Positions 10,190 to 16,586 of a stretch of 56,113 nt of DNA are shown piece after piece. The position numbers were made by a program, and so were the translations under genes. The DNA comes from Thermocrinis sp. (lineage in GTDB: Bacteria > Aquificota > Aquificia > Aquificales > Aquificaceae). The stretch's first letter is position 1. Each line of letters begins with the position of its first letter. The notes under the pieces were generated by a model that saw only the letters and a list, made by a program, of their open reading frames with translations, ran no database searches and had not been told where the DNA came from. The DNA is taken from contig JAPYWH010000007.1 in the NCBI GenBank assembly GCA_028276475.1, positions 1-56,113 on the forward strand. The letters are read 5' to 3'.

Positions 10190-10861
10190 TTATTTTAAAC
10201 ATTCCCACAAAAATCTAAGCGTTGTCCAATAGCCAGATGCATAAATTCTTCTAATTTCCCATTTACTTGGGCTTTGGGCATAGGTTCCCTTTATGGTAGT
10301 AAAGGCATATTGATAACCTGCCTTCTTTACCATTTCTACCACTTCAGCGTTGTGGTCTCCGTATGGATAGCAAAAGCCCTTTACTTCAACGCCGAGCTTG
10401 TCTTCCAAGAGCTTCTTTGAGTCCTCTATCTCTCTGCGTGCCTCTGCGGGAGGGATTTTTGTCAGAAAGGGATGGGTGAGGGTATGCGAACCAATCTCTA
10501 CGCCCTCCTTTACAAGAAAGGAAAGCTCCTCCCAGTTCATTATGGGTTTTATCACGTTCAGCTTTTGGTAGTCCCAACGGTTGAACTGCCCTACCAACTT
10601 GGCAGGCACAAAGACTATGGCGTGAGCCTTTAGGGCTTTGATAACCGGGAAGGCGTTTTCCAAAAAGTCCCTGTAAGCGTCATCAAAGGTAAGTAGCACA
10701 CCTCTGCCCGTAGGTTCAAGCCCTTGTGGCTTAACAAACCTAAAGTTAAGTCTGTCTAAGAGATTTAGCCAACGTTTGAACTTTTCCGGTTTAACATAGA
10801 GGGATTTCAGCCGGGCATTCTTTGGTGGGTTTTCCACATTGTGAAACATAAGAACTTTCAT
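10190..10861 (-). CDS. Polysaccharide deacetylase family protein (NodB homology)
   Basis: A 223-residue carbohydrate esterase family 4 domain. Motif 1 is LTFDDAY (catalytic base and metal Asp), motif 2 is SHTLTHP (the two metal His residues), motif 3 contains CYPYGDHN. No signal peptide is obvious (starts MKVLMFHNVENP), so it may act in the cytoplasm or be released by another route; MKVLMFHNV is the usual start of the domain itself. Substrates of the family are N-acetylated glycans. It overlaps the kinase gene by 4 bases, so kinase and deacetylase are coupled. Confidence 0.88.
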   Translation of the reverse strand: MKVLMFHNVENPPKNARLKSLYVKPEKFKRWLNLLDRLNFRFVKPQGLEPTGRGVLLTFDDAYRDFLENAFPVIKALKAHAIVFVPAKLVGQFNRWDYQKLNVIKPIMNWEELSFLVKEGVEIGSHTLTHPFLTKIPPAEARREIEDSKKLLEDKLGVEVKGFCYPYGDHNAEVVEMVKKAGYQYAFTTIKGTYAQSPSKWEIRRIYASGYWTTLRFLWECLK

Positions 10862-11697
10862 AACAGCCTCTGTGCAAGCATATAGTTTATGAGCTCCTTG
10901 GCGGTTTTGAACCTTTTTTCATGGTCCCTTTCAAGCATCAGCCCTAACAAAACCTGAGCCTTTGGAGATATTCCCTCCAGCATAGTGTATATAACCTGCT
11001 TGTTCCTTCTCAATTTCTCTTGCTCCTCCTCCGCATCAAAGGGAGATTTGCCCGTAAGGGTAAAGTAAAGAACGCATCCCAAGGAGAATATATCACTGCT
11101 CCTGTGAATTTGATTCTTGAAAACCTCCGATGCGATGTATCCCACCGTTCCCTTTATGTCTATTATGCCCGAGTATCCTCTTACCCTAAGCAGGCTAAAA
11201 TCTCCAAGCTTCCAAAGGATGCTCTTCATGACCCTTTTGCCAAAGATATTGTCGGGCTTTATGTCTCCGTGTATGTAGCCTCTGTTGTGTAAAAACTCTA
11301 AGCCCTTAGCAGCTTGGAATATTACCTTCAGGGCTTCTGCCTCCTCAAGGGGACCCTGCTTGGCAACATAGTGTTTGAGATTTCCAACATCCATAAACTC
11401 GTAGATCAAAAAGAGCTCTCCTCTATCCTTTTTATAGAGGTAGCTCTGCATGGTTAGGATATGGGGATGGTTAAAGAGTATGTGGGTTTGGGCTTCTTTC
11501 CAGAGGTAGGGTAGCATAGTTTTGTCCCTTGCCACCTTCAGCGCCACAATTTGCCCTGCATACCTTCCCTTTAGCACTTCCACCTTATAGACCTCTCCAA
11601 AGTTTCCTACGCCGATCAAGTCTATGACCCTATACATTCCCAGCAAGATGTCTCCTTCTTTATAAAGGCTCAGAGGCTGTTCTAAAAAATCACTCAT
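10858..11697 (-). CDS. Serine/threonine protein kinase (Hanks type) with atypical DFG
   Basis: A stand-alone 279-residue eukaryotic-like kinase domain. The glycine loop is GVGNFGEV (29-36), the ATP-anchoring lysine VALK (Lys54), the catalytic loop HGDIKPDN (143-150, so a non-RD kinase with Gly before Asp145), the metal motif is DFS (166-168) rather than DFG, and the APE position reads ASE. Asp145, Asn150 and Asp166 are all present, so catalysis is plausible. There is no transmembrane segment or PASTA domain. GGAGG at 11707-11711 is the ribosome-binding site, 9 bases from the ATG. The leader upstream contains the structured RNA described at 11726-11891. Confidence 0.88.
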   Translation of the reverse strand: MSDFLEQPLSLYKEGDILLGMYRVIDLIGVGNFGEVYKVEVLKGRYAGQIVALKVARDKTMLPYLWKEAQTHILFNHPHILTMQSYLYKKDRGELFLIYEFMDVGNLKHYVAKQGPLEEAEALKVIFQAAKGLEFLHNRGYIHGDIKPDNIFGKRVMKSILWKLGDFSLLRVRGYSGIIDIKGTVGYIASEVFKNQIHRSSDIFSLGCVLYFTLTGKSPFDAEEEQEKLRRNKQVIYTMLEGISPKAQVLLGLMLERDHEKRFKTAKELINYMLAQRLL

Positions 11698-11705
11698 CGA
11701 GATGC

Positions 11706-11724
11706 CCCTCCAACCTCTAAAGGG
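11706..11724 (-). promoter_or_regulatory. Possible hairpin masking the kinase ribosome-binding site
   Basis: In the minus-strand transcript CCCUU (11724-11720) can pair with GAGGG (11710-11706), which contains the Shine-Dalgarno sequence of the Ser/Thr kinase gene; the loop is 9 nt. It follows directly after the closing helix of the structured leader RNA. That is the position expected for an expression platform that controls translation. It is short (5 pairs, one G-U) and only suggestive. Confidence 0.35.
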
Positions 11725-11725
11725 A

Positions 11726-11891
11726 CTAACCTACCCCTCGCCCTATCCCACTAGTAAGACCTTTCCAAGGACAGGGAAGAGAAGGGCTACCTTCAAAACT
11801 CGCCAAGCGGATTGAGAGACCTTTTTAGTCTCTCCCTGCTCGGGATTCCTTCCGTTGGCTCCCTCCAGTTCAAGCTTGAACTGTAGGCTAA
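11726..11891 (-). ncRNA. Candidate structured leader RNA (multi-branched, possible riboswitch-like element)
   Basis: A 166-nt segment on minus folds into a closed multi-branch structure by eye. Closing helix: 11883-11891 with 11726-11734 (9 pairs, including two G-U). Inner helices: a self-complementary hairpin 11867-11882; 11851-11859 with 11802-11811 (9 pairs, one bulge) capped by hairpin 11814-11834 (7 pairs, 7-nt loop); hairpin 11781-11794 (5 pairs); and 11769-11776 with 11741-11748 (8 pairs, one G-U). The G-U pairs become C-A mismatches on plus, so minus is the RNA strand. A near-consensus promoter lies just upstream. I see no match to tmRNA, SRP RNA, RNase P RNA, T-box, TPP, SAM, lysine or cobalamin motifs. 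6S RNA or a new class remain possible. Confidence 0.6.
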
Positions 11892-11907
11892 CAAACATCA
11901 GGGTCAG

Positions 11908-11936
11908 ATTTTAGAGTAAAAAACTTTGTGTGTCAA
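11908..11936 (-). promoter_or_regulatory. Near-consensus sigma-70-type promoter of the kinase operon / leader RNA
   Basis: On minus, a perfect -35 box TTGACA (11936-11931) and a -10 box TAAAAT (11913-11908) are separated by exactly 17 bases. Transcription would start near 11901, a few bases before the structured RNA and about 200 bases upstream of the kinase ATG. It is the strongest promoter-like sequence I noticed in the window. Confidence 0.75.
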
Positions 11937-11971
11937 TGGGTTTGTATTTTTGGAACAGCCTTATTGAACGC

Positions 11972-11999
11972 TTGCAAATCCTGAAAAATGATATTAAAT
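11972..11999 (+). promoter_or_regulatory. Possible promoter of thiS
   Basis: TTGCAA (11972-11977), a 16-base spacer and TTAAAT (11994-11999) lie just before thiS. The predicted start of transcription is about 12006, only a few bases from the ATG at 12010. No Shine-Dalgarno is visible, so thiS may be translated from a nearly leaderless message. Confidence 0.4.
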
Positions 12000-16068: not shown

Positions 16069-16103
16069 GTTTAAAATTATAGGTTATGCAAAAACCTTAC
16101 CTT

Positions 16104-16564
16104 GGGTGAGAAATTCCGAGAAGCTGGAAATCTCTTAGGAAAAAAGTCTTGGCAGGGAGGGGACTTATAATACCCCAAAACCCCACCAAGGAGGTGCTAA
16201 AATGAAAAATCACCTCTATAGTTTATACCAAATGGTCTTAAAGTCCCTAACTTTCTATCTTGGAGTTGATCAGGAAAAGAAAAGGGCAGGCAGACCTCCA
16301 AAAGTCTCTGACCTCCAGTTTAGTGGATAGATTTGGGCTTATGGGAGATAGGGAATACAGGGGTTGTGAGTATGTAGAGGTTTGCGAAAGTAAGGAACAA
16401 AAGGGCATAAGGCAGGTGGTAGAGGGTGTAAATTCTCAGATAAAGCTTTTCAACCGAGTGAGCAGGTGGAGGAAAGGGATTACTTTACTTACCTACCTTT
16501 ATGGCTACGCTATAGGCTCGTAGCTTTTTCAGGAAGTTTCAAATATGAGGGTAATTTCTCACCC
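16104..16564. mobile_element. Decayed insertion sequence with terminal inverted repeats
   Basis: A 461-base element bounded by a perfect 12-base inverted repeat, GGGTGAGAAATT at 16104-16115 and its complement at 16553-16564. Beyond the 12 bases the ends still resemble each other weakly. It contains two disconnected pieces of a transposase-like reading frame in different frames. I found no clear target duplication next to the repeats. The element lies between pncB and bioB, filling what would otherwise be their shared upstream region. It could be a relic or a non-autonomous derivative moved by a full copy elsewhere. Confidence 0.7.
16202..16523 (+). pseudogene. Transposase remnant (N- and C-terminal fragments)
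   Basis: ATG 16202 has a strong ribosome-binding site (AAGGAGGTG) and opens a 42-residue frame ending at TAG 16328-16330. Its end, KKRAGRPPKVSDLQ, is typical of the N-terminus of DDE transposases. A second frame continues to 16523 and ends with VVEGVNSQIKLFNRVSRWRKGITLL, which reads like the C-terminal catalytic Glu region. The central part with the two catalytic Asp residues is missing, so the gene is inactive through an internal deletion and frameshift. The family cannot be named safely. Confidence 0.65.
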
Positions 16565-16586
16565 GACGTATTTTTTTAAGAAGGAT

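Follow-up and report, generated by a model that had tools for sequence, protein, structure and literature searches.

What is the structured RNA that seems to precede a Ser/Thr kinase gene in Thermocrinis? The window, by which we mean the whole 56,113-nucleotide stretch of DNA that was analysed, carries this gene on its minus strand (10858-11697), and a sequence-only reading had proposed a promoter and a highly folded leader RNA directly upstream of it. Sequence comparison leads us to a different answer: with a probability of roughly 85%, this is a TnpB-family transposon copy that has suffered an internal deletion and is non-autonomous. Each of six of the seven same-genus genomes contains numerous copies of its DNA, as does one Hydrogenobacter genome (G012), and most of these copies are split at window position 11866/11865 by about 1.3 kb. 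Full copies, found in Thermocrinis and Hydrogenobacter, measure about 1.64 kb, end in 19-bp terminal inverted repeats (GAGGCTGTTCYAAAAATCC and its complement) and have tnpB as their sole gene. Across all of the ~45 copies the right end hardly differs, whereas the first bases of the left end are variable.

Alignment against some 20 other copies sets the limits of the window element at 11673-11961 on the minus strand (289 bp), with the left end at 11961 and the right end at 11673; the extent first given to the feature was therefore too short. The left terminal inverted repeat (11947-11961) pairs with the right one (11674-11688) at 93% match over 15 nt, compared with 19 bp in other copies. Flanking the element on the left is the target duplication AGCGTTCAATA (11962-11972), itself preceded by TTTGCA at 11973-11978, and on the right the duplication TGAGCCTTTA (11663-11672), which corresponds to native 5' codons of the kinase gene. 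Within these limits lie the promoter (11908-11936) and a 50-codon remnant of tnpB (11746-11898), which starts at the ATG at 11898 and stops at 11746. In this remnant the first 11 codons, MFVSLQFKLEL, are joined to codons ~448 onward (EGANGRNPEQGETKKVSQSAWRVLKVALLFPVLGKVLLVG), leaving about 39 C-terminal codons. The junction at 11865-11866 marks the loss of ~1.3 kb of tnpB, including all three RuvC D/E/D residues. From here to the right end runs an omegaRNA-like segment (11673-11865), which spans the tnpB 3' end and lacks 41 nt between 11752 and 11751. This second loss removes helices 8-10 of the consensus fold, and the last hairpin, at the right end, is weakened. To judge from these losses, the window copy is a relic, unable to make TnpB and without the apical hairpins of its putative omegaRNA. 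Short, non-coding, multicopy and bounded by inverted repeats, the element has the properties by which MITEs are defined.

How much of the proposed RNA survives this change of identity? The TTGACA-N17-TAAAAT promoter at 11936-11908 on the minus strand is real: 11 of its 12 positions match, and it is the element's tnpB promoter, conserved in other copies. The call of a structured RNA on the minus strand is also supported at the level of sequence: 11900-11700 folds at -80.5 kcal/mol (z = -2.91), with none of 200 shuffled sequences equally stable. Taken on its own, the stretch between deletion junction and right end reaches z = -1.31; fold stability by itself is modest, and the case for a structured RNA is carried more by conservation. 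In a consensus fold of 28 right-end regions, 98.7% of cells are paired, falling to 41-63% when the fold is slid by one to three columns, and it contains 10 two-sided covarying pairs against a shuffled mean of 4.9, a signal to which the kinship of the copies could contribute in part. The compensatory changes that had been suggested as a check do occur in relatives. At 11814-11834 they show the hairpin with about four distinct pairs of complementary arms (GAGAGAC/GUCUCUC, GAAGGGUAG/CUACCCUUC, GAAGAGG/CCUCUUC and GAGAAGUAG/CUACUUCUC), and the arm 11769-11776/11741-11748 likewise covaries. The latter belongs to a long conserved arm (11729-11787) in which 11787-11768 pairs with 11749-11729 and whose apical hairpins are deleted in the window copy.

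The remaining helices were redrawn or lost. The hairpin at 11867-11882 exists, but it belongs to the 5' part of the tnpB reading frame, where this meets the deletion junction. The supposed closing helix (11883-11891/11726-11734) is present in the centroid structure and missing from the minimum-energy fold, and it unites parts that lie about 1.5 kb apart in intact copies. Only the first half of the helix 11851-11859/11802-11811 held; the helix as proposed has 79.8% of cells paired and zero two-sided changes, against the 98.7% pairing of the consensus fold. The hairpin at 11781-11794 is not kept in most relatives, CCUUC having become CCUCC in most rows. Pairing of CCCUU with the Shine-Dalgarno sequence of the kinase gene (GGAGGGG) is genuine, and it forms a conserved hairpin of the element itself (11704-11726; helix 11 of the consensus fold). 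The lack of hallmarks of known RNA classes, remarked on at first, also stands: Rfam scans gave no family at the gathering threshold and, at E<=10, no plausible family, only two chance-level matches, both on the opposite strand. A strong promoter and a compact fold would also suit a stand-alone housekeeping RNA, and a divergent 6S RNA had been suggested. Such an identity is exceedingly improbable, since RF00013 has no match at the window feature, a gathering-level 6S RNA is encoded elsewhere in the same genome (G000:C47:11655-11823), and the element is both multicopy and mobile.

Could the RNA still be a cis-acting leader of the kinase operon, transposon by origin and now kept for regulation? 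The kinase promoter, Shine-Dalgarno sequence and start codon all lie within the element, the conserved hairpin covers the Shine-Dalgarno sequence, and a second genome, G005, also has an element right end near its kinase gene. Against this, kinase-like matches were detected in 28 of 41 related genomes, and same-genus orthologues with as much as 96% identity are not preceded by this leader: in G003 (a single-contig genome with a 96% identical kinase) and in G001, the region upstream of the kinase is unrelated to the window element, and orthologues in more distant genera also lack it. Because these orthologues do without the element while its sequence occurs many times per genome elsewhere, we rejected a kinase-operon leader as the nature of the feature. 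The Shine-Dalgarno hairpin is, moreover, conserved in copies that adjoin no kinase gene, and the window copy is decaying, with its 41-nt loss and weakened right-end hairpin. Retention for regulation is accordingly given only a slim chance, and we return to the deleted transposon as the preferred reading.

What the relic has done locally can be read from the start of the gene. The native kinase gene begins ATGAGCCTTTATAAAG in G003 and G001, whereas the window gene reads MSDFLEQP, followed by LSLYK..., from an ATG at 11697 inside the right end of the element, so that the start codon and the first eight codons are element-derived. The present effect of the window copy is probably local only, namely the gift of a promoter, a Shine-Dalgarno sequence and a start codon to the kinase operon, which the element promoter plausibly drives. 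Beyond this example of a relic rewiring the start of a gene, the window copy itself matters little. In G005 (L003, contig C88) the right end of an element lies about 25 bp upstream of the kinase start, at a position different from that in the window, and is apparently an independent insertion into the same promoter region. The G001 kinase gene (L010/L029; G001:C27:100314-101133) is broken by stop codons or a frameshift.

The two duplications flanking the window copy are partners of another locus. The left duplication, AGCGTTCAATA, recurs to the right of a second deleted copy (L078, contig C67), and the left duplication of L078, TGAGCCTTTA, is what adjoins the window copy on its right; the left flank of L078 matches the region upstream of the native kinase gene in G003 and G001 at 92-94% identity. 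Because the duplications are paired crosswise and the left flank of L078 is native kinase upstream sequence, the window locus (contig C48) and L078 appear to have swapped flanks through recombination between element copies. Misassembly is the less likely explanation, since the two copies are only ~71% identical and a second pair, L081/L086, displays the same kind of exchange.

Full copies are flanked by target duplications of 8-12 bp that directly follow a G(G/T)CA motif. A rule-based automatic search scored 13 of 32 copies as having direct repeats that set in exactly at the right end, of which 12 were credible once one lying inside the repeat was dropped; shuffled flanks gave an average of 0.3 and a maximum of 2. 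All credible left boundaries are preceded by CA, mostly as GGCA or GTCA, and among TnpB elements the motif occurs on the left side in 20 of 32 cases and on the right in one of 45. Three distant homologues have the same layout: L161 (ATCTAAACT after TTTGTCA), L180 (AAATTTATCA after CCGTCA) and L181 (AGAAGGTAGG after TTGTCA). With joined flanks as queries, uninterrupted empty sites were recovered in sister genomes for seven insertions (L130, L079, L074, L129, L139, L127 and L082), at 92-99% identity across the joint. On this comparison of sequences, the TnpB family has been mobile recently. In two copies (L074, at 416-427, and L132, with its left end on the reverse strand) the left inverted repeat is shortened by ~10-14 nt beside a full-length target duplication, an odd outcome for DDE cut-and-paste transposition.

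What does the single gene of the full copies encode? The intact reading frame is about 510-520 aa long, and a 519-aa representative scores 60.6 bits with the TnpB-related model TIGR01766 (cut-off 32), 48.4 bits with guided_TnpB NF040570 (below its cut-off of 100) and weakly with Cas12f/TnpB models; a match to Pfam TNB spans 26 residues and falls below the cut-off. The RuvC residues D225, E288 and D357 are invariant in 19 homologues from several genera with 37-100% identity. The C4 zinc finger is absent, there being no CxxC in the conserved region 330-375. AlphaFold, run on a shallow alignment, gave a pLDDT of 46.7. No intact tnpB was found in the window's own genome, G000, which is weak evidence because short-read assemblies often lack repeat elements, and a plasmid search returned no match. 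A sister lineage of the TnpB-related protein (L151 in G003, L152-L160, L177-L179 and L182) occupies elements without inverted repeats that start near the ATG, end in a hairpin (...TTTGGTTNACCAGG / ..CACTTTGGTTNACCAGG) and reach many copies in some genomes. A TnpB-related protein with 43% identity is also encoded by Thermus phage phiLo (L223).

Which enzyme moved these elements? An IS605-type Y1 transposase (PF01797) was sought and was absent from G000 and from five of six sister genomes. In G012 and G001 we detected a DDE insertion sequence with a 278-aa reading frame (PF01609, 2e-12) and the terminal repeats of the TnpB element. One copy of it, L240, has GAGGCTGTTCTAAAAAT ends and a 10-bp duplication, GCGAAACAGT; this is the only DDE copy in which a clear duplication was found. 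Since this insertion sequence agrees with the TnpB element in its inverted repeats and target motif and likewise has a duplication, of 10 bp, we infer that the likeliest mover is this IS4/IS5-like transposase, or a relative, acting in trans. No match to the DDE element was obtained in G003 (a complete genome), G045, G015 or G022, all of which hold TnpB elements, so that mobilization in trans would there require a transposase that was lost or is different. L250 (G006:C131) is a short hybrid element that combines the right end of the TnpB element with end B of the DDE element. The window also contains, at 16091-16577, what remains of another DDE insertion sequence, whose ends read ...GGGTGAGAAATT and of which many full copies exist in G045 and other copies in sister genomes; it was rejected as the mover because its repeats (GGGTGAGAAATT) differ.

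Could the TnpB-related protein and its omegaRNA instead be the transposase, so that an RNA-guided element, in need of no other enzyme, would insert itself 8-12 bp beyond its own motif? Several observations would fit: tnpB is alone between the inverted repeats of full copies, no other gene turned up at those repeat sites of the complete G003 genome that were examined, Y1 transposases are missing from the window's own and most sister genomes, the orientation is fixed relative to an asymmetric motif, and L074 and L132 combine a shortened left end with a perfect duplication. The DDE element, however, shares the repeats, the motif and the duplication length, and GNCA can accompany one of its ends or the other, in 13 of 25 cases and in 4 of 14. 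Known TnpB, furthermore, cuts 15-21 bp from its motif (PMC8612924), and known elements move without TnpB (PMC3627910). With the discovery of a DDE element sharing the ends, transposition by TnpB itself became a minor, and in our view unlikely, reading. If the DDE transposase or a related enzyme mobilizes the elements in trans, insertions would be kept, or made, solely in the orientation that lets TnpB use the motif.

The role of TnpB may then lie in retention. Unchanged codons of G001 and G002 copies agree at the third position in 42-65% of cases within codons 1-435 and in 70-93%, mostly >80%, within the last 84 codons (436-519); at the level of sequence, this shows a constraint on the RNA of the element's 3' end. 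A structured RNA that overlaps the 3' end of tnpB and stops at the right end is reminiscent of the right-end-derived reRNA, or omegaRNA, of TnpB elements (PMC8612924). By this likeness, the folded segment, the last ~250 nt of the tnpB transcript, would be an omegaRNA scaffold, and the sequence immediately beyond the right end would serve as its guide. The TnpB predicted for intact elements could thus cut empty sites bearing G(G/T)CA next to the guide sequence, and such cutting would favour retention of the element.

How does this family compare with known systems? In the open-licence literature on TnpB in Aquificales/Aquificota and on bacterial TnpB with inverted repeats, we found no report of such a family. 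The TnpB-only IS1341 group of the IS200/IS605 superfamily resembles it in its single tnpB with a RuvC triad, in a predicted structured 3' RNA overlapping the gene and in a target motif beside the putative guide in the empty site. Known members lack inverted repeats and duplications, and evidence for their movement by TnpB is missing (Bao and Jurka, PMC3627910), whereas the present family has both 19-bp repeats and 8-12 bp duplications, lacks the C4 zinc finger and has the duplication between motif and left end. It therefore departs from the IS200/IS605, IS607 and IS1341 pattern of elements free of repeats and duplications, and a Y1 TnpA of the IS200/IS605 kind has no match in G000 or in five of six sister genomes. 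We regard the family as a bacterial TnpB element with DDE-type ends. The autonomy of IS1341 elements has been called unclear (PMC9956272), and whether, and by what, TnpB-only elements move is an open question (PMC9956272, PMC3627910). The family studied here makes it testable, because its ends are well defined, its targets are duplicated, sister genomes preserve the empty sites of seven insertions, and a candidate DDE partner shares its ends. MITEs share with the window element its short length, inverted repeats, lack of a transposase and multiple copies, but the latter still has its promoter and the greater part of an omegaRNA-like segment. The motif's fixed orientation points to a match between the target motif of TnpB and the target preference of the DDE transposase, like the match with TnpA in IS605 elements. 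A further likeness is to eukaryotic Fanzor proteins, which reside in DNA transposons with inverted repeats: Fanzor1 occurs in Mariner, IS4-like, Sola and MuDr elements, again a TnpB homolog within an inverted-repeat element that duplicates its target (PMC3627910, PMC10711439). The family described here differs in being bacterial (Aquificota) and in that its elements enclose no transposase gene. It would seem to be a bacterial counterpart of the capture of Fanzor by DNA transposons.
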